Shown one piece after another: positions 415-41,598 of a stretch of DNA of 41,820 nucleotides; positions within the stretch are counted from its first letter, which is position 1; each line of letters opens with the position of its first letter. A program made the translations under genes and the position numbers. This stretch comes from a bacterium (GTDB lineage Bacteria > Elusimicrobiota > Elusimicrobia > UBA1565 > UBA9628): assembly GCA_021806745.1 (NCBI GenBank), contig JAJZQS010000010.1, positions 1-41,820 on the forward strand, in the 5' to 3' direction. The notes under the pieces were generated by a model. It saw only the letters and a program-made list of their open reading frames with translations, was not told where the DNA came from and ran no database searches.

Positions 415-443
415 TTGACAAATTTCGGCGCTCGGCCTATAAT
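415..443 (+). promoter_or_regulatory. Consensus sigma70-type promoter TTGACA-N17-TATAAT
   Basis: TTGACA 415-420, 17 nt spacer, TATAAT 438-443; ATG follows after 6 nt at 450. Confidence 0.85.
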
Positions 444-449
444 CCCCGC

Positions 450-848
450 ATGACGTCGCGGCGCGCGTTGGGCGGGTTTTTTGCGGTCGTTTTCGGCGCG
501 GCGGGCTTGTGTCGCTTCGCGTGCGCGGAGTCCTTCGCCGCGCCAAGCGCCGTCGCGCCTTGCTGCGGAGGCGGCGTCGCAGCCTCGCGCCGCTGCCACC
601 CGTCTTCCCGCCGCGCTCCGTGCTGCGCGCGCGGCGTCGCCGACGCGCAGGCGCTGCCGCCCTCTCTGCCGGCTCGCCCGGCTTTCCGCGGCGCGCTCGT
701 CGCCGTCGTCTTCGCGCGGCCGCTCGCCGTCCCCGCGCCCGCCGCCGTCGCTTCGCTTCAGTCCTCCCGCGCGCCGCCGGGCGCCGGTCTGCCTCGTCCC
801 GCGCGCGATCCGCGCTCTCCCCGCCCGCCGCCCTCCCGGGCGGCCTGA
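450..848 (+). CDS. Small Cys-rich secreted hypothetical protein (metal-efflux-associated)
   Basis: ATG 6 nt after a consensus promoter; signal-peptide-like N-terminus MTSRRALGGFFAVVFGAAGLCRFACAES, then CC...C..CC and a Pro-rich C-terminus; precedes the efflux operon. Confidence 0.5.
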   Translation: MTSRRALGGFFAVVFGAAGLCRFACAESFAAPSAVAPCCGGGVAASRRCHPSSRRAPCCARGVADAQALPPSLPARPAFRGALVAVVFARPLAVPAPAAVASLQSSRAPPGAGLPRPARDPRSPRPPPSRAA

Positions 849-957
849 GACTCGGCCTGCTGCCGAGCCCTCGCCGTCGCCGACCCGCCTAGGCGCGCTT
901 TCGTGCGCCGCCGTGGAGGAGCAGCTTCATTAAAGACGCCGCATCCTGGAGACAACA

Positions 958-1352
958 TGAAACTCATCGCCGCCGTCCTCGCCGTTGCCGTCGCCGGAAT
1001 CATGACTTCCGCCGCATGGTCGCATGAAGGAACCGACGCCGAACACGGCGCCGGAGGCATGGAGATGACGGTCAAAGGGGAGCTCGTGGACCTGGCCTGC
1101 TACATGCCGCACCAAGGCCGCGGAAAGAAGCACGCCGAGTGCGCGCGCATGTGCATCAAGAACGGCGCCCCTCTCGGCTTGCTTGCCGCCGACGGAAAGA
1201 CCTATCTGCTCATCGAGGACCATTCCTCGGCGAAGGCGCGCAAGCCCTACCTCCGCGCCCGGGAACTCGTCGCCGAGACCGTGACCATCCACGGCGACAT
1301 GTATGAGCGCGGCGGCCTTCCCGCCATCGCCGTTGAGAGCGTGACCCAATAG
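958..1352 (+). CDS. Secreted Cys/His-containing hypothetical protein (VKGELVDLACYMPHQ..C..MC)
   Basis: ATG at 958 after a GGAGA SD; signal peptide; VDLACYMPHQGRGKKHAECARMCIKNGAPLGLL. Confidence 0.75.
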
Positions 1353-1354
1353 CC

Positions 1355-1783
1355 ATGAAGCCCTACCTCTTGCATCCGGCGGCCGTTCATTTCCCGCTGG
1401 CCCTGCTGATCACGGGCCTGGGGTTGTGCGCCGTCGACGCCCGGAGCAAGAGGCCGCCGTGGACGGCCGACGCCGCTTCCTGGCTGTTGTGGCTGGGGAC
1501 GGCGTCGGCCTGGGCGGCGGCGGGCCTGGGGCTGCTCGCGGCCCGCACCGCGCCGCACGCGCCGCCCGCCTGGGAGACGCTGGCCGATCACCGCACGCTC
1601 GGCCTGTGGACCGCGGCGATGTTCACGCTGCTGTCGGCGTGGCGGTTCTTCCGGCCGTCGTGGGCGCCGCGGCTTTTCTTGACGGCGTGGATCGCCGCCT
1701 CGGCCGTGCTCGTCTCGGCGGCGAGGCTGGGCGGCGAACTCGTCTTCGCCTACAACATGGCAACGGCGGCGAACGAACCATGA
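1355..1783 (+). CDS. DUF2231-like membrane protein
   Basis: MKPYLLHPAAVHFPLALLITGLGL... 142 aa with several TM segments; HPAAVHFP N-terminus typical of DUF2231. Confidence 0.75.
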   Translation: MKPYLLHPAAVHFPLALLITGLGLCAVDARSKRPPWTADAASWLLWLGTASAWAAAGLGLLAARTAPHAPPAWETLADHRTLGLWTAAMFTLLSAWRFFRPSWAPRLFLTAWIAASAVLVSAARLGGELVFAYNMATAANEP

Positions 1784-3045
1784 AAATCGACATGCTGGCG
1801 CTCGCGGCGATTCTCGTTGGTTCCATCGGGCGCGCGCAGACCGCCCCGGCGGCATCCTCCGCGACGCTGGCGCTGTCGCAGGCGCTGGAGGCGGCGCGCC
1901 GCGACAATCCGGAATTGAAGGCGGCGCGCGGCGAATGGGAGGCGGCCGAGCAGGCGCCGCAGCAGGCCTCGGCGCTGGAGGACCCCACGGTCTCATTGAT
2001 GGGGATGATCGCCCCGTTTCAGAGTTGGCCCTCCAACGGGCAGATCGGCGTTTCCCAGAGCGTTCCGTTTCCCGGAGTGCTGTCGCTGCGAGGGAGGGCC
2101 GCGGGCCTGGACGCGGAGATGGCGAGGCAGGCCTATCGCGCCAAGACGCTGTCGGTCCTGGCCGAGACGGTCGACGCCTACTACGAGCTCTATTTTCTCC
2201 TGCGGACTCGGGCGATATTGAAGGAGCAGACGAGCGTGCTGGAGCGCGCCGCGCGCGTGGCCGAAAAGAAGTATGCCGTCGGCCGCGAGCCCCAGGCCAG
2301 GGTCTTTCGCGCGCAGGTCGAATTGGCCGGTCTGGCCACCGACTTGGTGACGAGCGAGCAGCGGATCGCCAGCGCGCGCGCCCGGCTCAACGCCCTTCTC
2401 GACCGCCCGCCGCGATCGCCGCTGGGCGAGCCGCTCGGCCCGCCCGTGCCGGCGTCGGGCTGGGATGTCGGGTCCTTGAGCGCGGCGGCGCTGGCGTCGC
2501 GTCCGGAACTGCTCGCGCTGAGAGCTCTTGAAGGACGGCGCGGCGTGGAGCGAAGCCTCGCGCTGCGCAAGTATTTTCCCGATTTCACGATCGGCTATCA
2601 GTACATGGGGCCCGGGATGTCCTACACGGGGCGCGCCGCCGGCGCCGGGCAACTCGGCTTGAGCCTGCCGCTCTGGCTGGGAAAGAACGGGGCTGCGGTG
2701 CGCGAGGCGGACTCGCGGCGGGACGCCTCGCGCATGAGCGTCGAGGATTTGAGCAACCGGACGCGCTTTCAAGTGGAGGACCTCGTCGTCAAGCTCGAGA
2801 CGGAGGCGCGCCTGTCCAAGCTTTACGACGACACCGTCTTGCCTCAGGCGCAGGCGGCCTTGGAGTCCACGCAAAGCGCCTACGAGAGCGACGCCGCGGG
2901 TTTCTTGGACTTGCTGGACGCGGAGCGCGAGCTTCTTCGCTTCGAGTTGGAGCACGAGCGTCACCTCGTCGACTACGCCGAGGACTTGGCAGAGCTCGAG
3001 AGAATCGTCGGCGGGACTTTGCCGCCTCCGGGAGAAAAAAAATGA
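1780..3045 (+). CDS. TolC-family outer membrane efflux protein
   Basis: ATG at 1780 overlaps the previous stop; LSQALEAARRDNPELKAARGEWEAAE and later coiled-coil repeats typical of OEP/TolC; adjacent to RND genes. Confidence 0.9.
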   Translation: MKIDMLALAAILVGSIGRAQTAPAASSATLALSQALEAARRDNPELKAARGEWEAAEQAPQQASALEDPTVSLMGMIAPFQSWPSNGQIGVSQSVPFPGVLSLRGRAAGLDAEMARQAYRAKTLSVLAETVDAYYELYFLLRTRAILKEQTSVLERAARVAEKKYAVGREPQARVFRAQVELAGLATDLVTSEQRIASARARLNALLDRPPRSPLGEPLGPPVPASGWDVGSLSAAALASRPELLALRALEGRRGVERSLALRKYFPDFTIGYQYMGPGMSYTGRAAGAGQLGLSLPLWLGKNGAAVREADSRRDASRMSVEDLSNRTRFQVEDLVVKLETEARLSKLYDDTVLPQAQAALESTQSAYESDAAGFLDLLDAERELLRFELEHERHLVDYAEDLAELERIVGGTLPPPGEKK

Positions 3046-7351: not shown

Positions 7352-7382
7352 AACATCCGCGCGCAATTCCTACAATGGGCGC

Positions 7383-7922
7383 ATGCATAACTTCCAGGAA
7401 GTGCGCTCCGAAGCCGACATCCCCGAGCGCTACAGAGACACGCCCGTCGGCGAACTGTTGCGCTACCATGACCTCGGCGCGCCGCGCGACCGCCGCGCCG
7501 ACAAGCCGAGGCTTCTCATCGGCATGTGCATGGACAGCCGCAAGCACCTGCGCATCCCCGACAACTTCGCCTTCATCCTGCGCACCGGAGGGGCGAACCT
7601 GCGCCTGGCCGAGTTTCGCGTCTCCTACGCGATCGCCGTGGGCGGCGTGCGCGCGATCGCGCTGATGGGCCACACGAACTGCGGCATGTCGGGCCTGATC
7701 AACCGCCGCGCGGCGTTCGTGGACGGGCTTGTCGAGGTGGGGTGGTCGCGCGCGGCGGCCGAGGAGCATTTCGACCGCCTCGCGTCCGAGCACGAGATCG
7801 GCCCCGAGGGGGATTTCATCCGCGCCGAGGCCCGGCGTCTGCGCGCGCTGTATCCGAAAGTGCTGGTCGCGCCCATGCTCTACCGCGTCGAAGACGACAC
7901 CGTCGCCCTGCTCAAGGAGTAG
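7383..7922 (+). CDS. Beta-type carbonic anhydrase family protein
   Basis: CMDSR and GHTNCG motifs supply Cys-x-Asp-x-Arg and HxxC zinc ligands; 179 aa; TACAAT 6 nt before ATG. Confidence 0.85.
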   Translation: MHNFQEVRSEADIPERYRDTPVGELLRYHDLGAPRDRRADKPRLLIGMCMDSRKHLRIPDNFAFILRTGGANLRLAEFRVSYAIAVGGVRAIALMGHTNCGMSGLINRRAAFVDGLVEVGWSRAAAEEHFDRLASEHEIGPEGDFIRAEARRLRALYPKVLVAPMLYRVEDDTVALLKE

Positions 7923-7934
7923 CGGCCGCGGCGG

Positions 7935-8294
7935 CTATCGGCCCAAGAGCCGATTCCAGGCGGCGCGCAGCGAGTCGCCCAGGCCTTCGAGCATGGAGCC
8001 GAGCTTGCGTCGGTCCCCGGCGGTGGAGTCCGCCAGGCGCGACAAGGACCGGCTTGCGTCGTCGGCGGCGGCGCGAAAATCGTCGCCGTGCAGATTCAAA
8101 CCCGGGCCCGAGTTCTTGCGTGCGGGTTCCCGTTTTTTGGGCGCGAGCTTCTTGCCGAGAGCGGAAAGTTCGGCGCGCAGTCCGTGGGAAGACGGTTTTT
8201 TCTTGTGCGCTTTCTTCGAGCGCGCCGCGGCCGGCGAAGCGGCGCAGAGCAGCACGCCCAGCAGCAAGGTGAACGCGGGCGCAAGCGCCTTCAT
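7935..8294 (-). CDS. Secreted basic hypothetical protein (119 aa)
   Basis: Signal peptide MKALAPAFTLLLGVLLCAASPAAA; ATG at 8294 preceded by TAAGCT at 6 nt. Confidence 0.6.
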   Translation of the reverse strand: MKALAPAFTLLLGVLLCAASPAAARSKKAHKKKPSSHGLRAELSALGKKLAPKKREPARKNSGPGLNLHGDDFRAAADDASRSLSRLADSTAGDRRKLGSMLEGLGDSLRAAWNRLLGR

Positions 8295-8337
8295 GAAGAC
8301 AGCTTAGACTTTTCCCGCCGCGAATGCGAGGGAGGCT

Positions 8338-9885
8338 TTAAGGCTTGGCGTCGCCGACGGGAGCCGACGGCTCGCCCGCGGCCGCGTCGGCCTCGGGTCC
8401 GCCGCCCGACACGCCCGAAGCGGCGGCTTCCACGGAAGACTCGGGGCGGACCGAGGCGGACCGCGGCGCCGCCGCGGCGGCGCGAATGGGGCTGGTTCGG
8501 GCGAAAAACGAGGAGAGGCTCATGAAAAGCCCGGCCAGGCCAGCCGCAACCGCCCACCAGGCCAGAGGCATGCCCCAGAAGTAGATCGACGCGCCCAGCG
8601 CCAAAGCCTGGACGGTCAGGCCCACCGACATGCGCGAGGCCGCGCGGGCGCCGCCGCGGTTGGACGCGGCCAGAATCAGCGCCGACAGCGCGCCGGCCGC
8701 GACGGCTCCGGCCAGGACCGCTTGCGGGACCGCGTAGATCGACATCGTCATCACGGCCTGCGTCGCGAGCAGGGCGGCTGCCGCGGCGGCGGGCAGCGCG
8801 CGGCGCACGCGGGCCGCGCGGGACAGCCCCGGAGCGCTCAGCGCCGAGTAGGCGGACTTGCCGAGGACCGCCGCGGCCAGCGCCGTGGCCAGCGGGTTCA
8901 GACCGACGATCGAAAATCCGTTGAAGGCCATCTGGCCCGCGGCCAAGACCACATGAGCGGTGGAGGCCGAAACCGCGGCGCCGGAAACCGCGGCGCCCAC
9001 GGCGCGACCCGCCCCGGCGCCGGAGCGGCGCGCGGAGACGAAGCCTCCCACCGCGCCGGTCGCGGCCGAGAAGGCCAGGGCCGCGGGGTGCATCGCGGCG
9101 AGCTTGGCGGCGATGCCCTGCGCTCCGCCGAACAGGGAGGAGACATGCGGCCAAGCCCAACGCGCGACCATCGTCGCCGACACGCCCATGCCCACCAGCC
9201 GCGCGACCTTCTGCATGCGCGCCGAGGGAACTCCGGGGGCCGTCGACGCCGCAGCGGCCGCCGAGGCGGGCTTCAGGCCGGAGGCGACGCGCTCGGCGCT
9301 TTCGGCCGCGGGCGACGGCGCGGCTTGAGGAGCGGTCGAGGCCTCCGCGCGGGAGCGCAAGCCGTCGAAAAGTCGACCGAGGGATGAAAACGAACCTTCG
9401 CGTCCCGAACGCGCGGCGAAATCCATGGACGGCGCGATGCGATCGGCGGGGTCCGCGCGAAGAACGCCTTGTTCTGACGAGCGCGGGGCGGGCGCCGCGT
9501 CGGAAGCCTCCGTCGGGACCGCGTTCGCGGAGGGGGCGGCGGCTTCGGGCGCGGACGCCTCGGGCGCGGCGACGGTCGCGGGCGCGGCTTCAGACGGCGC
9601 GGGGGCGGCCGCCGGTGCGGCGGCAGGCGACGGCGTGGCGGCCGCCTGGGGCGCGGCGCCGGGCTCGACGGCGGGCGCGGCCAGAAGGGAATTCGCGGCG
9701 GCGGGGGCGAGCGTCGGCGAGATCGCAGAGACGGCCGGAGCGATGATCATGGGCGCGGCGTGCGAGGCCGAGGCGGCTCCCGCGTCCATCGCGCCGACTT
9801 CCTGGGCCGCCGAGAAAACCGGGGCGACGCCGACGAGGGTCGCGGCCAGCGCCGCGCTCAGGCACTTCGGGAGTGATCGCTTCAT
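8338..9885 (-). CDS. Ala/Pro-rich protein with C-terminal multi-TM domain, paralog A
   Basis: Signal peptide, long low-complexity Ala/Pro region, LFDG motif, then multiple hydrophobic segments; homologous block with the next gene (GFSIVGLNPLATALAAAVLGKSAY). Confidence 0.8.
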   Translation of the reverse strand: MKRSLPKCLSAALAATLVGVAPVFSAAQEVGAMDAGAASASHAAPMIIAPAVSAISPTLAPAAANSLLAAPAVEPGAAPQAAATPSPAAAPAAAPAPSEAAPATVAAPEASAPEAAAPSANAVPTEASDAAPAPRSSEQGVLRADPADRIAPSMDFAARSGREGSFSSLGRLFDGLRSRAEASTAPQAAPSPAAESAERVASGLKPASAAAAASTAPGVPSARMQKVARLVGMGVSATMVARWAWPHVSSLFGGAQGIAAKLAAMHPAALAFSAATGAVGGFVSARRSGAGAGRAVGAAVSGAAVSASTAHVVLAAGQMAFNGFSIVGLNPLATALAAAVLGKSAYSALSAPGLSRAARVRRALPAAAAAALLATQAVMTMSIYAVPQAVLAGAVAAGALSALILAASNRGGARAASRMSVGLTVQALALGASIYFWGMPLAWWAVAAGLAGLFMSLSSFFARTSPIRAAAAAPRSASVRPESSVEAAASGVSGGGPEADAAAGEPSAPVGDAKP

Positions 9886-9955
9886 GACTTTAGGATAGCC
9901 GCAGCCGCGTTCCGGCGCCTGATTCGAACGGCCCCCCGCGCTCGGACCGGAAGAC

Positions 9956-11365
9956 CTAGGCCTTGGGCGGCGCGGGAGGGCCGTCGGCGGGCGCTGCAGG
10001 CGCGGGCGGGGCGGGGGGAGTCTTGGGCGCGAACAGGGACGCCCATAAGGAGACGAGCGCGGAGCGAAACTCAGCGAAGCCCACGGTCAGCACGTCCCAG
10101 AAGCCCCAAACGGCCAGCGCCGCGAAGGGCAGGGAAAACCAAGGATTGGAGAGCGCCAGCGCCAAGCCGCCCATCAAGGACTGGAGAACGAAGCCTCGCG
10201 CCATTTGGTTGGGCCCGTTGGGGTCGGAACGGCCGGGCGTGAACAGCGTCGCGTAGAAGGCGGCGATGAGGCCGGTCACCGACAGCGCCGAGGCCGCCAG
10301 CGCGTGCGTCCAACTGGAGACGGCCACGAATTGGGCGATCGTGTAGGCGTTGAGGCCGAAGGCCGCCGCCACGGCCGGGAAGGCGCTGAAGATGCGGTCG
10401 GCGGAAGTCGTGGTCGCGGAGCCGAACTTGCCCTCGAAGGCGGTGTGGCCCAGCGCGGCCGTGACCAGCGCGGTGGACACCGGGTTGACGCCGGCAAACG
10501 AGAAGCCCGACAGTGCCGACTGCGCCATGCCCATGAGCGCGTAGGTGCCCGCGCCTCCGATGACGCCGTAGCGCAGGGCCGAGGAAAAAACCTGGCCGGA
10601 ACTCGGCGGCCCGCCCTCGGCGCGCCTCGCGGCGACCAGGCCGTAGACGACGCCGACGGCGGCGCTGAGCAAGGTGGCCGTCGGGTGCAGCGCCGAGAGC
10701 ATCGAAGCCGTGGTGAGGGCCGTGAACGGTGCGGACGCGGCCGCCGCGGCGGTCGCCGCCAGCGCGGGGACAGGAGCCAGCAAGACCGCGGCGGCGGCGA
10801 CGGCCAGGGGAACGGCGCGGCGGGCGCGGGAAGGCGAAAGCCGGGAGGGGGTGGGCCGGCCGACGGAGGAAGCCGCCGCGACCGCCGACGCGCCGGCGGT
10901 CGCGGCGCCGGCGTTCGAGCGGCCGTCGAAGACGGCGTCAAGCGACGGGGCGCTCGGGCGAGCGCGGGCGAAGATGGATTTCAGGACCGCCGTCGCCCGG
11001 GGGACTCGGGCCGCGGCGGGCTCGGGGCGAGCGGCCGGGGAGACCGCCGAGGCGGGGGCCAATGCGGCCTGTTCGTCGGCGGCGGGCGCGGGCGCGGCTG
11101 CTGCCGGGGCGGCGGGAAGCGCCGTTGCCGGGATGGGCGCGGCCGCGGAAAACGCGGGGGCCGCGATCGGCGCCGCAAGCGAGAGGGCGGAAAGCGAAGC
11201 AGCGGCCGACGGCGACGGGCTTGCCGACAGCAAGGCGGCGCCGACGGGGACTTCGATCGGCGCTTCGGGCGCGGCGGCGCGGGCGACGACTTCCTGCGCG
11301 CCGGCGGGTGCGGCAATAAGAACGGCGAGCGCGGCGGCAAGGCCGCGGGAGAAAGCGCGAATCAT
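9956..11365 (-). CDS. Ala/Pro-rich protein with C-terminal multi-TM domain, paralog B
   Basis: Start MIRAFSRGLAAALAVLIAAPAGAQ at 11365 (alternative 11377); VFDG motif; GFSFAGVNPVSTALVTAALGHTAF matches paralog A. Confidence 0.8.
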   Translation of the reverse strand: MIRAFSRGLAAALAVLIAAPAGAQEVVARAAAPEAPIEVPVGAALLSASPSPSAAASLSALSLAAPIAAPAFSAAAPIPATALPAAPAAAAPAPAADEQAALAPASAVSPAARPEPAAARVPRATAVLKSIFARARPSAPSLDAVFDGRSNAGAATAGASAVAAASSVGRPTPSRLSPSRARRAVPLAVAAAAVLLAPVPALAATAAAAASAPFTALTTASMLSALHPTATLLSAAVGVVYGLVAARRAEGGPPSSGQVFSSALRYGVIGGAGTYALMGMAQSALSGFSFAGVNPVSTALVTAALGHTAFEGKFGSATTTSADRIFSAFPAVAAAFGLNAYTIAQFVAVSSWTHALAASALSVTGLIAAFYATLFTPGRSDPNGPNQMARGFVLQSLMGGLALALSNPWFSLPFAALAVWGFWDVLTVGFAEFRSALVSLWASLFAPKTPPAPPAPAAPADGPPAPPKA

Positions 11366-11460
11366 CGCCCGTATCATACCGCGCGGACGGTGATCGCGCC
11401 CGGTGCGAAAGGCCCGGAAACACGCGGCCGGAGGACCCAGCGCGGACCGGGACGCGGGGT

Positions 11461-12795: not shown

Positions 12796-12811
12796 CGCGC
12801 GGCGTCGAGGG

Positions 12812-14038
12812 CTACTCGGCTTGCGCGAAGCCGTGCAGGGCGCCGACGCCGCGGTAGACCATTCCCGAGATCTCGCGGATCACGTTGCCGCGCTCGCGCA
12901 GCCAGCGGAAGTAGTGCCGGGCGCGGCGGCGCTTCTCGATGATGCCGACCATCGCGTAAGCGTATTCACGACCGTCGGGGCCCTTGGCGCGCAGTACGCC
13001 GATGTCGCCGCACAGCCGGCTGGTGCTGCCGGTCTTGCTGTAGACCTGGACGTCGTCGGGCAGAGGCGCGCCGGTCTTGAGACGGTCGCGCTTGGGCAGG
13101 GCCATTAGGCGCTTGATTTCCTGCGAGCCGGGAAGCTGGTCGCGCCACAGCGCCAGCAGGAAGCGGCTATAGTCGCGCGCCGAGGCCTTGTTGCGGTAGG
13201 TGCGGCCGTCGGCCGGAATGTACTCCTTGATCTGGACGCCCGACAGCAGGGCGCCGTAGCGCTCGCGCAGCAGGCGCTGGACGGCCGCGGGTCCGCCGAC
13301 GCGGCGCATCGCCCAATCCGCAGCGGCGTTGTCGGAGCGCTGGATCATCTTCTCCAGGTGCGAACGAGCCGAGGCGTCGTAGACGAGCTTGCCGTCGGCG
13401 ACGCGGCTCATGAAGGCCAGCGCGATCAGCGGCTTGACGAGGCTGGCGGTCTGCAGTTCGTCGTCGGCGTTGATCTCGACGAGGGTCTCGCCGGTGGTGA
13501 AATCGTAGACCGACCAGGCGGTGCGCTCGTCGCGCGCCAGGCGTCCCTCGCGACGCAGTTCGAGGACGTGCGCGGCGAGCAGGCCTTCGAGCCGGCGCTT
13601 CTCGGAGGCGCGCGCGGTTTCCAGAGGTACGACGACCCTCGGCGCGCGAGTCTTGCGCGCGCGCGCGTGCTTCGTCGCGGCGCGCGCGACCGCGACGGGA
13701 GCGGGCGGCGCGTCGATCATGACCCAGTCGCGCGAGGCCACGATCCAGGCCTTGCCGAGTTTGTGGCGGCGCAGGACGAGTGACTGCCGCTTGGCGGCTC
13801 GCATCGCGCCGTTGCGGTCGCGGCCGCGCAGGTAAATCACCCCATAGGCGCCGTCGGCGGCAACCACGCGCAGGTGCCGTCGCGCCGTGGGACCGAGGAG
13901 CTTGCCCACCGCGTCGCGCCTGGCCGCGGCGGATGCCTGGTCGACATGCCACAAATAGGACAAGTCGTAGGTGCCCGGCGCGGCCGCGCGCGCCGCCGCG
14001 GCGAAAAAAACCAACGCCAGCCATGCATGGGCGCGCAT
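12812..14038 (-). CDS. Serine hydrolase (class A beta-lactamase/PBP-like fold)
   Basis: SxxK (TASLVKPL), SDN (QRSDNAA), KTG (YSKTGSTSRLCGD) motifs in order; N-terminal signal peptide. Confidence 0.85.
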   Translation of the reverse strand: MRAHAWLALVFFAAAARAAAPGTYDLSYLWHVDQASAAARRDAVGKLLGPTARRHLRVVAADGAYGVIYLRGRDRNGAMRAAKRQSLVLRRHKLGKAWIVASRDWVMIDAPPAPVAVARAATKHARARKTRAPRVVVPLETARASEKRRLEGLLAAHVLELRREGRLARDERTAWSVYDFTTGETLVEINADDELQTASLVKPLIALAFMSRVADGKLVYDASARSHLEKMIQRSDNAAADWAMRRVGGPAAVQRLLRERYGALLSGVQIKEYIPADGRTYRNKASARDYSRFLLALWRDQLPGSQEIKRLMALPKRDRLKTGAPLPDDVQVYSKTGSTSRLCGDIGVLRAKGPDGREYAYAMVGIIEKRRRARHYFRWLRERGNVIREISGMVYRGVGALHGFAQAE

Positions 14039-14091
14039 ACGGCAATGGTAACAGTTTTTTTGGGATTTCGTCAGGGGGGCCGAGAGAAATT

Positions 14092-14761: not shown

Positions 14762-15835
<1,074 letters not shown>

Positions 15836-15838: not shown

Positions 15839-17731
15839 TTAGCGGCGAGGCTTCTTTTTCGGGCGCGCAGGCTTGGCCGGAGCCGGCCGCCGCGGTTTAC
15901 GCTTGGGGCCGGAGGGAGCCGCCGGGCCCGAGCCGCCGCCGTGCCGAGCCGCCGCGGCGCGCATCTTGGCCAGAATGGCGGAGGTCGGCGCGGAGGCCAG
16001 GCCCCAGAGCAAGTCGAAGTGCGCCTGCATGTAGGCGGCGTGGAAGCTTTGCCACAGCTCGACGTTCTCGAAATTGTGGAGGAAGGCGTTTTCGCTGATG
16101 TTGAGCGAGTCGCCGAGCTTGGCCAGAGCGTCGGGGGCCGCGCCGTCGAAGACCATCACTTTCTCATGCATCTTGGACGCGTATGTATACGGCGCGCCGC
16201 GAAGCACGACGTCGGGGCCGGCGATGGTCTTGAGCTGAAGCCCGTTCTTCATCAAGGGAAGCAGTTCGGCGCCCGCGCCGGCGACTTCCCCGACGTCGGC
16301 GATCAGGCGCACGGGGATGTTCTTGGCCAGCAGGGCCCGGATGGCGGCGGAGAGGCTCGGCGTCGGGTAGGGCGCGAACATGAGGATGTCGAGCGTGCGC
16401 TTGACGGTCTGCACGGCCCGGGTCAGCCAGCTTTCGGCCGTGCCGCCGGGAGTGCCCATGGCTTTGGGAAAAGGCACGCCGTGGAAGTTCAGCGTGCGGC
16501 TGGGGTCTTGGGGGATCGGGTCGGAGGGGTCCATCACCGGATCTTGCGGCTGAAGCGAGCTCGAGTACGGACGCGCGCGGCGGTAGATCCAAGCGTGGAA
16601 CTTCGAATAAAAAGAAATGCGGTCGGGATCGTTCGTGAAGACGACGTTTTCCCAGTGGCTGTTTTGCGAGGCCAGGGAATAGTTGAAGGAGCCCGACTGC
16701 AGGAGTTGGGACCCATCGGCGGCGGTGAAGACGGTGAACTTGTCGTGGTTGATGCCGATGGGGCCCAGCCCCTTGAGGATGCGCAGTTCCAGGTTCGGCC
16801 CGAGATTGGCGACGATGTAGTTCATCGCGGGCGTGGGCTGGGGCAGGGGTTCCCCGGTCTTTTGGGAGCGGGCGATGTTTTCCGGCATGCGCTGCGGAAA
16901 CCAGTTGCTGTAGTCGCCGACGATGACTTGTTTTTTGCCCGCCTTCGCGGCCGCGACGATGGCCTGGGCCATGGCCATGTCGTCGAAGTTGTACATCGCG
17001 ATGAGCGCCGAGGAGCTCTGCGCGTGCGCGGAAAGCCAAAGCGCGAAGATGTCGTCGCCGACGGTGGGCAGAGCGATCACGGGCAAAACGGCCGCGCCGA
17101 AAGTCACGGTCGGGCGCGTTTTGGGGTTCAGGATGCCGGAGCCGGCGGAGGGGGAGACGACGGGGCCGTGTGAATCGGGGGACTCGGGTTGGTCGCCGGA
17201 CTCGGCTTGTCCCCAGTCCAAAAATTGTTGAAGAGTCGCGGCGAGATTTTCGGACAGCCGCGGACGCGCGCGCGACAGCAGGCTTTGGGCGGCGCGGGCG
17301 GCGGCGGCGCGCGAGGAGGCCGCGCGCGCGGCGAAGGCGGGGTCGCGTGCGGCCTGCGCGTCGATCTTGCCGGAGACGGCCGCCAGGCGCTTGGCCGCCG
17401 CCGCGGGAACGCCGGCCTGGCGCAGGCGTTCGGGAGTCGCCGAGGTCGGCGCGGCCAGAACCGCGAGCGCGGCGGAGTAGGCCGCCGCGGCCGGAGCGCT
17501 TTGGATCGAGGCCGCGCGAGCGCTCAAGGCGTCGAGCGAAGACAGCGCCAGCGCGGGGCTGCGCAGGGACAGGCCGCCCGCCGCGCGCGTCAGCGCGGCG
17601 GCCGCGCCGCCGGAGAAAGCCGAGGCGACGGCGCTGGCGGGCAGCGCCGGAAGCGCCGGCTCGACGACGACCGCGCCCGCGGGCGCGGCCAGAAGCAACG
17701 AGAGTAGAACGCGAAGCGCGCGCGACATCAT
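15839..17731 (-). CDS. Secreted phospholipase D-like protein (two HKD-like motifs)
   Basis: Signal peptide; INHDKFTVF...GSFNYS and SKMHEKVMVFDG; Ala-rich N-terminal region; basic Pro/Arg/Lys C-terminal tail. Confidence 0.82.
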   Translation of the reverse strand: MMSRALRVLLSLLLAAPAGAVVVEPALPALPASAVASAFSGGAAAALTRAAGGLSLRSPALALSSLDALSARAASIQSAPAAAAYSAALAVLAAPTSATPERLRQAGVPAAAAKRLAAVSGKIDAQAARDPAFAARAASSRAAAARAAQSLLSRARPRLSENLAATLQQFLDWGQAESGDQPESPDSHGPVVSPSAGSGILNPKTRPTVTFGAAVLPVIALPTVGDDIFALWLSAHAQSSSALIAMYNFDDMAMAQAIVAAAKAGKKQVIVGDYSNWFPQRMPENIARSQKTGEPLPQPTPAMNYIVANLGPNLELRILKGLGPIGINHDKFTVFTAADGSQLLQSGSFNYSLASQNSHWENVVFTNDPDRISFYSKFHAWIYRRARPYSSSLQPQDPVMDPSDPIPQDPSRTLNFHGVPFPKAMGTPGGTAESWLTRAVQTVKRTLDILMFAPYPTPSLSAAIRALLAKNIPVRLIADVGEVAGAGAELLPLMKNGLQLKTIAGPDVVLRGAPYTYASKMHEKVMVFDGAAPDALAKLGDSLNISENAFLHNFENVELWQSFHAAYMQAHFDLLWGLASAPTSAILAKMRAAAARHGGGSGPAAPSGPKRKPRRPAPAKPARPKKKPRR

Positions 17732-17808
17732 GGCTTGAGCTTACCGCGCGCGCGCGATCGGCGATAGAGTCCTATGGCCCCGCCGGACGGGGACGGAAGA
17801 CCCAGCGT

Positions 17809-20192: not shown

Positions 20193-21617
20193 TCACTTGG
20201 CCGGCCAGGCGCCGCGCTCGCGGTGCTCCACGGCCGCGCGCACGCCCTGGTCGCGCAGATGCTTGGCCAGCCTCTCGGCGCAGAACACCGAGCGGTGTTG
20301 GCCGCCGGTGCAGCCGAAGGCCACCTGCAGGTGCGTGAAGTTTCGTCGGCCGTACTCGGCCGCGGCCTGGTCGATCAGCGCGAAAGCCGAGCGAGTCCAG
20401 CGCTCGACGTCGTCTTGCGCGGACAGGTAGGCGATCACCTCCGAGTCCAGTCCGGTGAGGTTCTTGAAGCGCGCCAGTCGGCCGGGGTTGGGCAGGCAGC
20501 GGCAATCGAACACGTAGCCGCCGCCGTGGCCGCGGTCGTCGCGGGGCATGCCGTTTTTGTAGGAGAAGCTCTGGATTTGGACTTCCAGCGAGAGTTTCGC
20601 CGAGCCGAAGCGACGCAACTCCGCCGCGCCGATCAGGCGCTTGAACACCGCGAGCAGTTCAGGCACCTCCACGGGGAGGTTCGAGGTCAGCAGGATGCGC
20701 TCGATGTTTCGGATCGCGTAGGGGATGCTTTGGAGGAACAGCGGCTTTTTTTCGTGGAAGCCGCGCAGTCCGTAGGCGCCCATGGCCTGCATGATGCGGA
20801 TCAGCGCGAAGCCGGGGAAATACTTCTTGAACTGCGCCGGATCCACCGGCGCGTAGCGCGCGGCCTCGCGCAGGTAGTGCTCCAGGAGTTCGTCGCGCAG
20901 TTCGAAGGGCACATCGGCCTTGGCGTCATAAAGGAGAGAGGCCAAGTCGTACTGAAGCGCGCCCCGGCGCCCGCCCTGGTAGTCGATGAAATAGGGACGG
21001 CCGTCCTTGAGCATCACGTTGCGCGACTGGAAGTCCCGGAACAGGAAGTAGTCGCGCGGAGCCGCCAGCAGGTAGTCGGCGAACGCCGAGAAGTCCTGTT
21101 CCAGACGCTCCTCGTGGAAGACGACGCGGCCCAGGGTCAGGAAGTAGTACTTGAAGTAGTTCAAGTCCCAAAGCATCGACTGCTTGTCGAAGCTGCGCCG
21201 GGGGTAGCACCAGCGCTCGTCGATCCCGCGCCCGGCCGCGATTTGTATGCGCGGCAGCCACGACACGACGCCGCGATAGGCGGCGACCACATCCTCGGGA
21301 AAACCCTGGGGCTGGCGGCGGCGGCTCAGGAACTGGAACAGCGTGGTGTCGCCGAGGTCTTCCTCCAGGTAAGCCGTTCCCGAGGCGTCCTCGCCGAAAA
21401 TCTCCGGGACGGGGATGCCCTCCTTCAGGAAATGCCGCGAGAAGTCGATGAAGGCGCGGTTTTCCCGGACATCGTCGTTGAGCACGCCGACCGCGGTGCG
21501 TCCGTCCGCCGCCAGGCGGTAGATGCGGCGGTTGGAGCCCTCGGCGCGAACCGGCTCGACCGACTCGGGGTCGCGCCCGAAGCGCGCGCGAAAAAGCGTC
21601 CTCAGTGCGTCGTGCAT
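20193..21617 (-). CDS. Aminoglycoside-phosphotransferase-type (AmgK-like) kinase fused to RapZ C-terminal domain
   Basis: N-terminal APH-like: YLEEDLGDTTLFQFL, FLFRDFQSRNVMLKDGRPYFIDYQGGRRG; C-terminal RapZ-like: VFDCRCLPNPG...VAFGCTGGQHRSVFCAERLAKHL. Confidence 0.88.
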   Translation of the reverse strand: MHDALRTLFRARFGRDPESVEPVRAEGSNRRIYRLAADGRTAVGVLNDDVRENRAFIDFSRHFLKEGIPVPEIFGEDASGTAYLEEDLGDTTLFQFLSRRRQPQGFPEDVVAAYRGVVSWLPRIQIAAGRGIDERWCYPRRSFDKQSMLWDLNYFKYYFLTLGRVVFHEERLEQDFSAFADYLLAAPRDYFLFRDFQSRNVMLKDGRPYFIDYQGGRRGALQYDLASLLYDAKADVPFELRDELLEHYLREAARYAPVDPAQFKKYFPGFALIRIMQAMGAYGLRGFHEKKPLFLQSIPYAIRNIERILLTSNLPVEVPELLAVFKRLIGAAELRRFGSAKLSLEVQIQSFSYKNGMPRDDRGHGGGYVFDCRCLPNPGRLARFKNLTGLDSEVIAYLSAQDDVERWTRSAFALIDQAAAEYGRRNFTHLQVAFGCTGGQHRSVFCAERLAKHLRDQGVRAAVEHRERGAWPAK

Positions 21618-21687
21618 CCGGGCATCTTAGCCAAAATATGCGCTATGATGTCGCGGCGCCGGTCGTTCTCGGCGCGGAGGAAAACGC

Positions 21688-23397: not shown

Positions 23398-23426
23398 TTG
23401 CAATTTCGCGGTGGATGGGTTAGAAT
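23398..23426 (+). promoter_or_regulatory. hrcA operon promoter TTGCAA-N17-TAGAAT
   Basis: TTGCAA 23398-23403, 17 nt spacer, TAGAAT 23421-23426, abutting the CIRCE-like repeat. Confidence 0.7.
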
Positions 23427-23453
23427 CTAGCAGTCGGTAAATTTGACTGCCAA
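23427..23453. promoter_or_regulatory. CIRCE-like operator (variant) upstream of hrcA
   Basis: CTAGCAGTC-GGTAAATTT-GACTGCCAA, a 9-9-9 inverted repeat. Confidence 0.88.
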
Positions 23454-23470
23454 TTATCAGCAGAGCCGAG

Positions 23471-28134: not shown

Positions 28135-28365
28135 TCAGCAGACCAGCCCCAGGAGCGCTCCGACGACCGCTCCGACCAGCCCGCCCCACTCGGCTCGGGC
28201 ATACAACATCCCGGCGACGTAGCCCAGGACCATCCAGGCCGTGGTCGAGCGGGGCTTCCCCAGGCGCTCGAAGACGGCCGCGGCGGCGAACATCCCCGCC
28301 GTGACGGCCCAGAACAGCGCGGATGCGTGGCGCGGGACATGGAGGGGTACGAAGAGCGTGCTCAC
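28135..28365 (-). CDS. Small membrane protein (76 aa)
   Basis: GTG start; hydrophobic segments, Gly-rich C-terminal GGLVGAVVGALLGLVC; TAGACT 6 nt upstream. Confidence 0.6.
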   Translation of the reverse strand: MSTLFVPLHVPRHASALFWAVTAGMFAAAAVFERLGKPRSTTAWMVLGYVAGMLYARAEWGGLVGAVVGALLGLVC

Positions 28366-28467
28366 GCCCGCAGTCTAGCAACTCCGAGCGACCCGCGGCC
28401 GATCGCCGTCGCCAAAGCCAATAGACGACCAGCGCTTGTTTTCCTACCATTGCGCCCGGCCGCGCCG

Positions 28468-31723: not shown

Positions 31724-31746
31724 GCGCGAAGCTGTATAATTCCGGC

Positions 31747-32985
31747 ATCAAGATTTGGGTCAAGACGTTCGGCTGCCGGGTCAACCAGGCCGAGGGCGAC
31801 GCGCTGAAGGCGGCCCTGGCGGGGGCGGGTGCGCGCGAGGCGGAGGATTTCGACGGCGCCGACGCGTGCGTGATCAACACTTGCACGGTCACGGGGGAGG
31901 CCGACCGCGAGGCGCTGGCGCTGCTTCGCCGCGTCGCGCGGCGCAATCCCGCGGCCAGGCTCGTGGTCACCGGTTGCCTGGCCGAGCGCGACCCGCGGGC
32001 GGTGCTCGCGGCCGCGCCTCACGCCGAGGTCGTCGGCCACGCGGCCAAGGCTGGAATTCCCGCGATGTTCGGCTGCTCGGCCGCGCCCGCGGGGATGCTC
32101 GCCGCTTCGCCCGCGGGCCGCAGTCGCGCCTTTCTCAAGGTCCAGGACGGCTGCAACATGTCTTGCGCCTACTGCACGATTCCCGCGATACGCCCGGAGC
32201 TCTCTTCGGTCCCGGTCGCCGAGTTGATCGCGCGCGTGCGGGCCCTGGCCGCGGCCGGCGTGCCCGAGATCGTGCTCTGCGGCGTGAGGCTCGGCCGCTA
32301 CCTGCGCCGCGACGACGGCGAGCGCGTGGACTTGGCCGGCCTCATCGCCCGACTGCTCGACGCGGCCGAGGGGTTTCGCCTGCGCTTGTCGTCGCTGGAG
32401 GTCACCGACGCGAGCGATCGCCTTTTCGCGCTGATGCGCTCCTCGGGCGGGCGGCTGTGCCCGCACCTGCACCTGCCCCTGCAGTCGGGCTGCGACGAGA
32501 CCTTGCGGCGCATGCGGCGCTGGTATCGCTGCGAGTTCTACCGCCGCCGCGCCGACGCCTACCGCGCGGCGGTCCCGGAGGGCTCGTTGTTCGCCGACGT
32601 GATCGCGGGATTTCCCGGCGAGACGGACGCCGAGCACGAACGCTCGCTGTCGTTCGCCCGTGAACTCGGCTTCGACGGCCTGCATGTTTTCCGATATTCG
32701 CCCCGGCCCGGCACCGCGGCCGCGGCCTGGAAGGCGCCCGCGCCCGCCGTCACGCGCGCGCGCGCCGAGGAGTGGCGCAGCCTGGACGCCTCGCGCCGGG
32801 ACGCGCACGCGGACCGGGCCGTCGGGCGCGCACGCGTGCTGGCGCCCGCCCTGGACGGGCGCGAGGGCGTCAGCGAGGATTTTTTGACCGTGCGCGTGCC
32901 GCGCGGTTTGGGCCGCGGACTGACCCCCGTGCGCGTGACGGCGCGCGAGGGCGGCGCGCTGGTGGCCGGGCCGTCCGGGTCCTAG
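31747..32985 (+). CDS. mtaB: MiaB-type tRNA methylthiotransferase (MtaB-like, radical SAM)
   Basis: IKIWVKTFGCRVNQAEGDAL; VQDGCNMSCAYCTIPAIRP radical SAM cluster; HLPLQSGCDETLRRMRRWY. Start uncertain: ATC at 31747 fits a leaderless promoter; in-frame TTG lies upstream at 31672. Confidence 0.9.
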   Translation: MKIWVKTFGCRVNQAEGDALKAALAGAGAREAEDFDGADACVINTCTVTGEADREALALLRRVARRNPAARLVVTGCLAERDPRAVLAAAPHAEVVGHAAKAGIPAMFGCSAAPAGMLAASPAGRSRAFLKVQDGCNMSCAYCTIPAIRPELSSVPVAELIARVRALAAAGVPEIVLCGVRLGRYLRRDDGERVDLAGLIARLLDAAEGFRLRLSSLEVTDASDRLFALMRSSGGRLCPHLHLPLQSGCDETLRRMRRWYRCEFYRRRADAYRAAVPEGSLFADVIAGFPGETDAEHERSLSFARELGFDGLHVFRYSPRPGTAAAAWKAPAPAVTRARAEEWRSLDASRRDAHADRAVGRARVLAPALDGREGVSEDFLTVRVPRGLGRGLTPVRVTAREGGALVAGPSGS

Positions 32986-33396: not shown

Positions 33397-33439
33397 CGGG
33401 CAGTCCAGTTCCGACGACGGAAAGGTGGTGAATCACTGA

Positions 33440-33637: not shown

Positions 33638-33640
33638 CCG

Positions 33641-33690: not shown

Positions 33691-33745
33691 GATTTGGAGG
33701 AATGTTGAACGACGCCGTTCGAACCGCCGTTGCGGAGCGTGAGCG

Positions 33746-35458: not shown

Positions 35459-35481
35459 CGCGAGGCGGATAAAGGAGAACC

Positions 35482-37197: not shown

Positions 37198-37199
37198 CC

Positions 37200-37439: not shown

Positions 37440-37443
37440 ACTG

Positions 37444-38118
37444 CTAGCGGCGGCGCTTGAGCACCTCGCGCAGGGCTTCCGCGGCCAAGTCCTTGGCGCC
37501 GAGGCCGAAAGCGATGGCCAGCGCCAGTCCGAGCGAGCCCAGCAGGATTTGCGCCGTCGACACGACGAGCGCCGGCCTTGCCCCGATCTGCTCGAGCGCG
37601 GCCAGCGCCGAGTAGCCGACGACGACCGCGTAGGCTCCGGCGGCCACGGCGCGCCCGCCGCGGATGGTGTTGGCCTCGGAGGCGTTGATGAGCACCTGCG
37701 ACAGCAGGCGCGCGAACAGCAGGCCGCCGAAGACGATCAGCACGCCGGAGATCAGCGCCGGCAAGAACGCCGCGAAGCGCTCAAGCAAGTCCGAGACCGC
37801 CGTCATGTTCAGCGCGTTGGCCGCCGAGACCACGAAGACGACGATCAGAAACCAATAGACGACGAACGCCGCGACCGCCGTCGGTGAGCGGCCAAGTCCC
37901 AGGCGCGCGAGCAGTTCGTTGAGGCCGGCGCGGCTGGTGTGGTCGTCGAGGCGGATTTTTCCGAGCACGGTCTCGACGATCATCCGGAAAAAGCGCGCCA
38001 GCAGCATTCCGGCCAGCAGCAGCAGGAACGCCGCCGCCAGCGCCGGCAGAGCCGACGACACGCGCTTGGCCGCCGTCAGCAGCGGATCGACGAACAGCGA
38101 GGTCCAATTGCCGTACAT
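37444..38118 (-). CDS. Membrane protein with mechanosensitive-channel-type conserved TM helices
   Basis: ALAAAFLLLLAGMLLARFFRMIVETVLGKIRLDDHTSRAGLNELLARLGL; LALAIAFGLGAKDLAAEALREV. Confidence 0.75.
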   Translation of the reverse strand: MYGNWTSLFVDPLLTAAKRVSSALPALAAAFLLLLAGMLLARFFRMIVETVLGKIRLDDHTSRAGLNELLARLGLGRSPTAVAAFVVYWFLIVVFVVSAANALNMTAVSDLLERFAAFLPALISGVLIVFGGLLFARLLSQVLINASEANTIRGGRAVAAGAYAVVVGYSALAALEQIGARPALVVSTAQILLGSLGLALAIAFGLGAKDLAAEALREVLKRRR

Positions 38119-38145
38119 GGGCGCGATTCTAGCACTTCGCGCCGT

Positions 38146-38523: not shown

Positions 38524-38563
38524 CTTGCGGACATTATGCGCGCGGCGCGCGCCTCGCGCAGGC

Positions 38564-38601
38564 GGCTTAGGTCCCGAATCCGGCTAGGCCCTCGGTCCTA
38601 T
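38564..38601 (-). promoter_or_regulatory. Two-block repeated element, copy 1
   Basis: Minus: ATAGGACCGAGGGCCTAGCCGGATTCGGGACCTAAGCC; the two GGAC cores are 24 bp apart; upstream of the 38523(-) start. Confidence 0.45.
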
Positions 38602-39482
38602 TATTGGTTGGTCGTCGCGCGCAGGCCCAGGGGCTGGGGCTGGCCGGCGTTCGGGTCGGTCGCGGACGGCGAGCCAAGAGCGTTTGCGTTCAGCACGGAG
38701 CCTTCGACGCCTTTCATGCGCGCGTCGGCCGCGATGGCCGGCCGGTAGGTGAGCCGGATTTTGCTCGTGTCGGCGACGGTCGCGCCGTCCACGCGGCCGG
38801 GCTCCAGGGCGGCGGCGCCGCGCGCGCCGGGTCCGGCGCCGAGGCCGGGCGCGCCGCCGAGTTGGGCCATCAGCCGGCCCATCCCCGAGCCCAGGGACCG
38901 GGCTCCGGAATCGGAGGCGCCCACGGTGGAGGGATCGCTGCCCGAGGTCCCGCTAAGACCGAGCATGCCCGAGCCGGAGGGCTCGGGAACCGCGCCGGCG
39001 CCCGAGGCCAGCGGGCCCGCGCCGACGGAGTCCCCGCCGCCGCCGGCAGCGGGGGAGCCGTCGGCCTTGAAAGTGGAACCTCCCGGCGTCATCAGCCCGC
39101 CCGGGGTGCCCAGGCCGGCCGCCACGTCCGGCCGGGCGCCGAGGCGGGCGCTGAACCCGAACGGGCGCTGAGAGCGCAGGCATTGTCCGTAGGCCCGCAC
39201 CACCGGGTCGTCGGTCTTGTCCAAGGAGATGAAGTCGGTGTTCTTGCCGGTGGCCAAGTCCGACATCTTCACCGTGCCGTGGAAGAAGATGAACTGCTTC
39301 TGGGCGGCCATGTCGTAGCAGGTCTGCCCGCCGGCGGGGGGAGCGTCCGCGCTCGCGGGGGAGGCCGCTTCGAGTGTGGACGCGTCGAGATTGGAAAATC
39401 CCGCCCCGGGCGCGGTCGAGGCGCGCGCCGGAGCGGCCGCGGCGAGCGCGGCGGCGATCAGGAGCCGGGGAGGGGTTTTCAT
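38601..39482 (-). CDS. Secreted Gly/Ser/Ala-rich hypothetical protein
   Basis: MKTPPRLLIAAALAAAAPARA signal peptide; QTCYDMAAQKQFIFFHGTVKMSDLATGKNTDFISLDKTDDPVVRAYGQCLRSQ, then a low-complexity Gly-rich region. Confidence 0.65.
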   Translation of the reverse strand: MKTPPRLLIAAALAAAAPARASTAPGAGFSNLDASTLEAASPASADAPPAGGQTCYDMAAQKQFIFFHGTVKMSDLATGKNTDFISLDKTDDPVVRAYGQCLRSQRPFGFSARLGARPDVAAGLGTPGGLMTPGGSTFKADGSPAAGGGGDSVGAGPLASGAGAVPEPSGSGMLGLSGTSGSDPSTVGASDSGARSLGSGMGRLMAQLGGAPGLGAGPGARGAAALEPGRVDGATVADTSKIRLTYRPAIAADARMKGVEGSVLNANALGSPSATDPNAGQPQPLGLRATTNQ

Positions 39483-39541
39483 GGGAGTCGTTCCTTGTCG
39501 CGTCGACATCCCCAGCATACCCCGCTCTCTCGCATGGCGCC

Positions 39542-39580
39542 ATAGGACTAAAGACCTACCTGTCAATGGGACTTAAGGCC
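39542..39580 (+). promoter_or_regulatory. Two-block repeated element, copy 2
   Basis: ATAGGACTAAAGACCTACCTGTCAATGGGACTTAAGGCC; GGAC cores 24 bp apart; upstream of the phosphohexomutase gene. Confidence 0.45.
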
Positions 39581-39602
39581 CACAGGCGCTTGGGGGCGGC
39601 GG

Positions 39603-39632
39603 TTGACCGGGCCCCCCGACTTATCTTAGGAT
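39603..39632 (+). promoter_or_regulatory. Promoter TTGACC-N18-TAGGAT, 5 nt before ATG
   Basis: TTGACC 39603-39608, TAGGAT 39627-39632, ATG at 39638. Confidence 0.6.
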
Positions 39633-39637
39633 GGCCC

Positions 39638-41116
39638 ATGATTAAATTCGGCACCTCGGGCTGGCGCGGCGTGATCTCGGACGAGTTCACCTTCGCCAAC
39701 GTCCGCCGCGTCGCGCACGCGGCCGCGGGCAGCGTCAAGGAGAGCGTGGACGTCGGCTACAACAGCGACGACTACCGCCAGTTCCTGAAGGGAGCGGCTC
39801 CCAGCCGCGTGCCGACCGTCGTCGTCGGCTACGACACGCGCTTCCAGTCCGAGGATTTCGCGCGGGAGGTCGCGGCGGTGTTCGCCGCCGACGGCGTGCG
39901 CACGCTGTTTTCCGCCTCGGATTTGCCCACGCCGGCGGCCGCCTGGGCGGTGCTGGCGCACAAGGCGGTGGGCGGGGTCATGATCACGGCCTCGCACAAC
40001 CAGAGCCATTACAACGGGCTGAAGTGGATGCCCTATTGGGGCGGCGCGGCCTCGCCGACGGTGACCGGGGAACTGGAGCGGCGCGTGGACTTGCTCGGCG
40101 AGCACGCGGTCAAGACGATGCCCGAGGAGCGCGCGGTCAAGGAGTCCTGGTTCGAGACCGTGGACTTCCGCAAGTCGTATTTCGATCAGTTGGAGAGCCT
40201 GCTCGATGTCAAGGCGATCCGCAAGGCGAAGTTGTCCGTGGCCGTCGACGCGATGCACGGCTCGGGGCGGCTGTATCTGCGGCCGTTCCTGGAGGAGCGC
40301 CTGGGCGTGACGGTGGCGGCCATCCGCGAAAACCGCGATGTGCTGTTCGGCGGCGCCTCGCCGGAGCCCTCGCCGGAGGCCTCGGCGCCGCTGGCCGAAC
40401 TGGTCAAGAAGGGAAAGCTCGACCTGGGGCTGGCCTGCGACGGAGACGCCGACCGCTTCGGCGTCATCGACGCCGGCGGCGAGTGGATTTCGCCCAACGA
40501 CGTGATCGCGCTGGCCTACGAACACTTGGCCGCGCGCCGCGGCCTCAAGGGCAAGGCCGCGCGCTCGGTGATGACCTCGCATTTCGTCGACGCCGTGGCC
40601 AAGTCCCACGGCTCGGAGACGCGCGAGACCCCGGTGGGCTTCAAGTTCCTGGGCGAACTGCTGCGCACCGGCCAGTTCCTTCTGGCCGGCGAGGAGTCCG
40701 GCGGTCTGTCCATCCGCGGCCACGTGCCTGAGAAAGACGGCATCTTGGCCGGACTGCTGATGCTGGAGATGGTCGCCTGCGAGGGCAAGACGCTTACGGC
40801 CGTGCGCGAGCGCCTGCACAAGAAGCTCGGACACTTCCACAACGCCCGCGTCAGCCAGCCCGTGGAGCGCGTGCGCCAGATCTCGGAGCTCGAAGGCCGC
40901 CTGCGCGCCAAGCCGCCGCTGGAACTGGCCGGGGGCTCGGTGTGGCGCGTCGACCAGAGCGACGGCTTCAAGTTCATCCTGCGCGACGGTTCTTGGTTGG
41001 GACTGCGCAGTTCCGGGACCGAGTCGGCGTTCAGGCTTTACGCCGAGGCGTCGACTCCCAAGCGCTTGCATGAGCTCTTGGATGCCGGGCGCAAGCTGGC
41101 GCAGGGAAAGTTCTAA
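39638..41116 (+). CDS. Alpha-D-phosphohexomutase (phosphoglucomutase/phosphomannomutase family)
   Basis: KFGTSGWRGVISDEFTFANVRRVA; VMITASHNQSHYNGLKWMP; LACDGDADRFGVID; LRSSGTESAFRLYAEA. Confidence 0.95.
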   Translation: MIKFGTSGWRGVISDEFTFANVRRVAHAAAGSVKESVDVGYNSDDYRQFLKGAAPSRVPTVVVGYDTRFQSEDFAREVAAVFAADGVRTLFSASDLPTPAAAWAVLAHKAVGGVMITASHNQSHYNGLKWMPYWGGAASPTVTGELERRVDLLGEHAVKTMPEERAVKESWFETVDFRKSYFDQLESLLDVKAIRKAKLSVAVDAMHGSGRLYLRPFLEERLGVTVAAIRENRDVLFGGASPEPSPEASAPLAELVKKGKLDLGLACDGDADRFGVIDAGGEWISPNDVIALAYEHLAARRGLKGKAARSVMTSHFVDAVAKSHGSETRETPVGFKFLGELLRTGQFLLAGEESGGLSIRGHVPEKDGILAGLLMLEMVACEGKTLTAVRERLHKKLGHFHNARVSQPVERVRQISELEGRLRAKPPLELAGGSVWRVDQSDGFKFILRDGSWLGLRSSGTESAFRLYAEASTPKRLHELLDAGRKLAQGKF

Positions 41117-41140
41117 GCGATCGCCTCATAAAATCGTCCC

Positions 41141-41172
41141 TTGACCCGATACCTAGGTATAGGGTCTATAAT
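41141..41172 (+). promoter_or_regulatory. MerR-type promoter: TTGACC-N20-TATAAT with spacer dyad
   Basis: ACCCGATACCTAGGTATAGGGT (41144-41165) is a 22 bp dyad with one mismatched pair and a perfect ATACCTAGGTAT core; 20 bp spacer. Confidence 0.88.
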
Positions 41173-41178
41173 GAGGTC

Positions 41179-41598
41179 ATGAGCGGACCCCTGACCGCCG
41201 GCCGCCTCGCGCGTCGCGCCGGCGTGAATATTCAGACCGTCCGATATTACGAGAGGCGCGGGCTCCTGGCCCCCGAGCGGCGCACCCCGTCGGGCTATCG
41301 GCTCTATGGGCCGCAGGCCGTGCGGGTCATCCGCTTCGTCAAGAACGCGCAGGCGTTGGGCTTCACCCTCGATGAAATATCCAAGCTCCTGCGCCTGCGC
41401 GTCGACCGGAAAAGCCGCTGCGCGTCGGTCCAGCGGCGGGCCCGGGCGCGGCTGGCTCTGGTGCGCGAAAAGCTCGCGGGATTGCGCGCGATCGAAAGCA
41501 CCCTGCGTCGGCTGCTCAAGACCTGCGCCGCGCGCGGGACCACGGACTTGTGCCCGATTCTCGAAAGTCTCGAATCAAGGAGGTCGTTCCATGGATAG
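41179..41598 (+). CDS. merR: MerR-family transcriptional regulator, mercury-type
   Basis: N-terminal HTH GRLARRAGVNIQTVRYYERRGLL; three Cys with spacing 35 and 9 residues, equal to the Cys82/117/126 spacing of Tn501 MerR; followed by a merT-like gene. Confidence 0.92.
   Translation: MSGPLTAGRLARRAGVNIQTVRYYERRGLLAPERRTPSGYRLYGPQAVRVIRFVKNAQALGFTLDEISKLLRLRVDRKSRCASVQRRARARLALVREKLAGLRAIESTLRRLLKTCAARGTTDLCPILESLESRRSFHG

Follow-up and report, generated by a model that had tools for sequence, protein, structure and literature searches.

Leaderless mRNAs in other bacteria are translated by 70S ribosomes that bind a 5'-terminal AUG or GUG directly. A computational survey of 953 bacterial genomes reported start-adjacent TANNNT boxes and leaderless genes in 207 of them (PMC3160421); leaderless genes were found in 8 of its 20 'Other Bacteria', a group that might include an Elusimicrobium. 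Leaderless transcription was likewise predicted by GeneMarkS-2 (Lomsadze 2018) in 21.6% of bacterial genomes, as cited in PMC9581028. In Deinococcus radiodurans the TANNNT hexamer was tested and acts as a -10 region (PMC12340547); in mycobacteria, both AUG and GUG work, and some leaderless messages are inhibited when IF3 is high (PMC9031893, PMC9094748). Our search of the open-licence literature found no earlier description of leaderless expression in Elusimicrobia or Elusimicrobiota.

Here, we analyze a window of 41,820 nucleotides, one entire contig from the draft genome (2.78 Mb, 93.6% complete) of an uncultured soil bacterium of the class Elusimicrobia, whose closest named relatives, judged by DnaK, are uncultured Elusimicrobia MAGs (93% identity). 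A first-pass annotation of this window had listed 14 genes with a TANNNT hexamer 5-7 nt before the start codon and had likened them to the leaderless genes of Deinococcus. The parallel holds, and the host lineage (Elusimicrobiota) is indeed unrelated; the architecture is more common among bacteria than the annotation implied (207/953 genomes, PMC3160421; 21.6%, via PMC9581028).

Start-adjacent TANNNT boxes in the window

Sites were scored with a 38-nt promoter matrix trained on the genome minus the window, in part on contigs picked for TATAAT-N6-ATG, against a null of 42,376 internal ATG/GTG codons. All 14 hexamers, gaps and start codons listed by the first-pass annotation match the sequence as claimed, and this held-out matrix gave p = 2.4e-5 to 1.1e-3 for every one of them. 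For 17 other window genes (hsp20, rpoD, dnaK, dnaJ, hrcA, a histidine kinase gene and others), the same matrix gave p of at least 0.13. From these features and those of the genome-wide population described below, the 14 window sites are very probably start-abutting sigma-70 promoters that yield leaderless or near-leaderless mRNAs.

At 438..452 (+), TATAAT-N6-ATG is joined by TTGACA at 415-420 over a 17-bp spacer, a perfect sigma-70 consensus (p = 2.4e-5); the ORF behind it (450-848, 132 aa) is weak and was uncalled by the codon-usage gene finder. The same score was obtained for TACAAT-N6-ATG at 7371..7385 (+), ahead of gene 7383-7922 (carbonic-anhydrase-like by a weak Pfam match under the cut-off), for TATGAT-N6-ATG at 14762..14776 (+), ahead of an FMN oxidoreductase gene (14774-15835), and for TAGAAT-N7-ATG at 38116..38131 (-), ahead of gene 37444-38118 with a mechanosensitive-channel helix. 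Two further forward-strand sites share p = 9.4e-5, namely TATAAT-N6-ATC at 31735..31749, where an mtaB-like radical-SAM gene (31747-32985) has a putative AUC start codon, and TAGGAT-N5-ATG at 39627..39640, which precedes a phosphoglucomutase/phosphomannomutase gene (pgm, 39638-41116) whose relatives keep a TTGACC -35 element. On the reverse strand, TAGACT-N6-GTG at 28363..28377 leads into a short 76-codon ORF whose start is 28365 (p = 1.2e-4), TAAGAT-N6-ATG at 21615..21629 into a gene with APH and RapZ-C domains (20193-21617; p = 2.1e-4), and TACCAT-N6-ATG at 14036..14050 into a gene with a beta-lactamase-family enzyme domain (12812-14038; p = 2.8e-4).

Four more reverse-strand hexamers, at the starts 8294, 9885, 11365 and 17731, have weak middle bases, and their support comes mainly from membership in the population: TAAGCT-N6-ATG at 8292..8306 (ORF 7935-8294, 119 aa, signal-peptide-like; p = 2.6e-4), TATCCT-N6-ATG at 9883..9897 (gene 8338-9885; p = 8.5e-4), TATGAT-N7-ATG at 11363..11378 (gene 9956-11365; p = 1.1e-3) and TAAGCT-N6-ATG at 17729..17743 (gene 15839-17731, PLD-like; p = 8.3e-4). 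For the starts at 11365 and 38118 (gap 7) and at 39638 (gap 5), we infer a leader of 0-1 nt. As a separate observation, an in-frame ATG (11377) lies within the -10 box TATGAT of gene 9956-11365 (-), and automatic annotation would begin this protein four codons early.

The remaining site, TATAAT-N6-ATG at 41167..41181 (+; p = 3.3e-4), precedes a merR-family gene (41179-41598) and has TTGACC 20 bp above TATAAT (41141-41172). This spacer holds the palindrome ATACCTAGGTAT. A palindrome in a long -35/-10 spacer is the usual layout of MerR operators, and the gene, with its leaderless-type promoter, is probably self-regulated. Upstream of hrcA, at about 23426-23460 and also in the loci L101-L129, we noted an inverted repeat like TTAGCAGTC-N-GACTGCTAA, a variant of the CIRCE operator.

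Positional enrichment and promoter anatomy across the genome

We sampled 1.26 Mb of the genome in stretches (GC 68%) and called genes with a simple codon-usage-only finder that is blind to upstream sequence. Of the first 40 stretches, many belonged to contigs known to carry the motif, and the statistics were redone on the 60 others; the unselected subset, with contigs drawn regardless of motif, amounts to 570 kb and gave the same outcome as the full sample. In the 1.26 Mb, these motif-blind calls revealed a sharp TANNNT peak 6 nt ahead of ATG/GTG. The hexamer stood at -12 in 47/248 divergent genes, 25/202 genes with a large upstream gap and 22/90 genes with a gap of 25-59 nt, and in 8/427 operon-internal genes, the per-position background being 2.1, 1.3, 0.2 and 0.2, respectively. 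Among unselected contigs, 36 of the 245 first-in-unit genes had TANNNT at -12 against 1.8 expected (P ~ 7e-34), and just 3 of the 185 operon-internal genes did, which restricts the box to first genes. Its spacing is exact, with a gap peak at 6 and a shoulder at 7-9 that together rise 20-fold over other positions ahead of the same genes, and a gene-call-free histogram of the distance from TATAAT to the start also peaks at 6 nt, for ATG and for GTG. This comparison with matched controls was the test that the first-pass annotation had named; run genome-wide, it found the enrichment and did not refute the claim.

By the promoter matrix, 68 of 245 first-in-unit genes in the unselected contigs reached p<1e-3 (28%, a share that is slightly optimistic as these contigs belong to the training set) vs 6 of 185 internal genes, and genes at this threshold make up about 17% of all genes there. 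About a quarter of transcription-unit-initial genes have a promoter that directly abuts the start codon.

The anatomy of the 102 box-bearing genes is that of a sigma-70 promoter. TTGAC lies exactly at -35 in 11 of them, at -34 in one and elsewhere within -48..-25 in one, which corresponds to the standard 17-bp spacer to the -10 box. SD motifs and the box exclude each other: 4/102 leaderless-type genes have an SD motif vs 320/775 others (Fisher 1e-16). The base at -1 is C in 79 of the 102 (77%), G in 21, T in 2 and A in none. Start codons are ATG and GTG, and TTG is absent among the 102. Operon-internal genes carry an SD motif in 194/427 cases vs 55 in a control interval, and the SD system therefore also operates in the same cell.

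We infer the position of the transcription start and the mode of ribosome recruitment from this anatomy. An ordinary sigma-70 promoter, comprising a -35 TTGAC, a 17-bp spacer, often an extended TG and a -10 TANNNT, abuts the coding sequence, with the -10 box ending 6 nt (range 5-9) ahead of ATG or GTG. RNA polymerase would start 6-7 nt below the -10 box, that is, on the A or G of the start codon, usually after C at -1; where the gap is 7-9, a leader of 1-3 nt may remain. The resulting mRNAs would be leaderless or nearly so and would have to be translated without SD contact, while operon-internal genes of the same genome use SD sites.

Conservation in relatives and rival explanations

The architecture is conserved across the class. 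Named class Elusimicrobia loci had 21 TANNNT at -12 vs 1.4 expected, and no such peak was present in the sampled Endomicrobia and Omnitrophota, which served as negative comparison groups, or in the other classes sampled. Counts of TATAAT-N6-ATG relative to the same pattern with a 16-nt gap were enriched in the class Elusimicrobia families f1 (146:43), f2 (29:7), f3 (1461:709), f4 (409:282) and f7 (18:6), where f4 is heterogeneous and some of its member genomes have little or no excess. Family f6 of the same class was not enriched (19:35), and f5 and f8, with a single genome each, gave no significant result. The families of other classes were not enriched either (f10, 558:648 in 11 of its genomes). 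A small and mixed set of loci (L130-L142) showed no peak, though f3 is enriched by pattern counts.

Single orthologues permit a closer view. Within the genus, pgm keeps TTGACC and TANNNT while the spacer has diverged, and its start is fixed by the protein sequence MIKFGTSGWRG. This start lies 5-9 nt after the box in L202-L204, L206 and L211, whereas in L207-L210, L212 and L213 it is separated from the same promoter by a leader of some 30 nt that contains AAGGGG. For rsmE, TAGAAT-N6-ATG occurs in L104, L107 and L113; L104 has TAGAAT-N6-ATG-CCC, with the start fixed by MPQFFVAPED and close variants in L107 and L113, and the gap of the window copy is 23 nt long and includes an SD-like motif. These differences among orthologues suggest that leaders come and go between closely related genomes, and, as read from the promoter and protein alignments, orthologues switch between predicted leaderless and leadered forms inside one genus.

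Three other explanations were weighed against start-abutting promoters. A+T-rich intergenic DNA ahead of starts could give TANNNT at many positions by chance, and with 2869 TANNNT in the sample lone matches indeed carry little weight; the peak, however, is limited to gaps 6-9, where it exceeds the other upstream positions of the genes concerned 20-fold, and the whole genome contains TATAAT-N6-ATG 28 times, the version with a 16-nt gap 2 times and the reversed pattern 0 times. The peak and these counts refute chance and composition, to which we assign practically no probability. We regard as very unlikely that the hexamer belongs to a normal leader as an A/T-rich non-SD element for ribosome binding, like that of Bacteroidota, with the promoter farther upstream, even though it keeps a constant distance to the start codon and takes the place of the SD. 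The consensus is TATAAT and not just A/T-rich, given that 27 of 83 TATAAT stand 6 nt before ATG vs at most 1 for any permuted hexamer (in a partly motif-selected sample), and the hexamer is nearly absent from operon-internal genes, which need ribosomes too. It is also coupled to TTGAC exactly 17 bp upstream, and because of this coupling we read it as a sigma-70 -10 box and not as a ribosome-binding element.

The start codons themselves might be wrong: translation would then begin farther downstream, after an SD site, and the ATG next to the -10 box would be there by accident. The longer, AAGGGG-containing pgm leaders (about 30 nt) behind the same promoter fit this account, but in the pgm, rsmE and mtaB proteins N-terminal conservation begins precisely at the codon that follows the gap, and the excess behind near-consensus boxes is limited to ATG (53) and GTG (18), every other codon occurring at most 3 times; misplaced starts are thus highly improbable. 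On the preferred reading of start-abutting sigma-70 promoters, leaderless expression would extend to the class Elusimicrobia, in sharp contrast to Endomicrobia within one phylum, the switching of pgm and rsmE between close relatives would open leader gain and loss to study on a short time scale, and gene callers that expect an SD may misplace starts in class Elusimicrobia genomes.

Start codons of mtaB and infC, and comparison with known systems

Gene 31747-32985 (+) is an mtaB/miaB-type methylthiotransferase (UPF0004 and radical-SAM domains) with ATC where ATG would be expected. In the window, an in-frame TTG 25 codons upstream of ATC is a possible start, and the next canonical start lies 41 codons downstream, past the conserved motif. 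In genome G165 the orthologue has TATAAT-N6-ATC, and its open frame contains no ATG, GTG, TTG or CTG ahead of the conserved FGCRVN motif; in G207 an in-frame stop stands two codons ahead of ATC, and in G208, from another family, there is ATC only. The putative AUC start is conserved in L183, L184 and L185, where no alternative canonical start is in frame. Other genera of the order have ATG, GTG or TTG at the same position, and five loci (L190, L231, L236, L237 and L239) have GTC behind GGAGG or GGGAGG, and L231 and L237 offer no ATG, GTG or TTG anywhere from the in-frame stop to the conserved motif. AUC as a general leaderless start codon was rejected, since the sampled genome shows no excess of ATC after -10 boxes, and mtaB would therefore be an exception.

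The IF3 gene infC of the window's genome (L243:1495-2031, -) has no canonical start in frame, and most genus members (L244-L260) have ATC or ATT with an AGGAG motif upstream. The lineage appears to initiate infC at ATC or ATT, and starts of this kind serve IF3 autoregulation elsewhere (PMC13009471). A tentative reading, which we hold to be possible rather than probable, is that the mtaB-like tRNA-modification gene of the genus is expressed from a leaderless mRNA beginning with the near-cognate AUC, that orthologues in the order may use AUC or GUC, and that the start is held weak as if on purpose, like that of infC, so that mtaB output would track IF3 activity. Our search of open-licence papers found no AUC-initiated leaderless message; if the mtaB start is read on a leaderless mRNA, it would put to the test the rule that only AUG and GUG support leaderless initiation.

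In Staphylococcus aureus, infC, ccpN and cvfC1 initiate at AUA or AUU, which lowers their yield and is modulated by IF3 (PMC13009471). The infC of the present lineage likewise appears to have ATC or ATT. The S. aureus genes are SD-led with an extended SD, whereas mtaB here has a candidate leaderless-type AUC in two genomes. Mycobacterium (PMC3898074, PMC4633059, PMC9094748) resembles the present case in the use of ATG and GTG as 5'-terminal starts and in a share of about 25%; its leaderless mRNAs have been mapped by RNA-seq, whereas those described here are predicted from sequence. Genomes predicted as leaderless by GeneMarkS-2 also have a promoter box directly ahead of the start. Deinococcus-Thermus (PMC3160421, PMC12340547) has the same hexamer about 12 bp before the start codon, coexisting with an SD class as it does here. 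The leaderless share in that group is 30-40%, compared with about 17% of genes and 28% of first genes here (p<1e-3, unselected contigs), and the unrelated Elusimicrobia differ further by a clear TTGAC -35 in a subset. Judged by every sequence feature that can be tested, the Elusimicrobia promoters fit the known leaderless TANNNT architecture, and the new part is the lineage.
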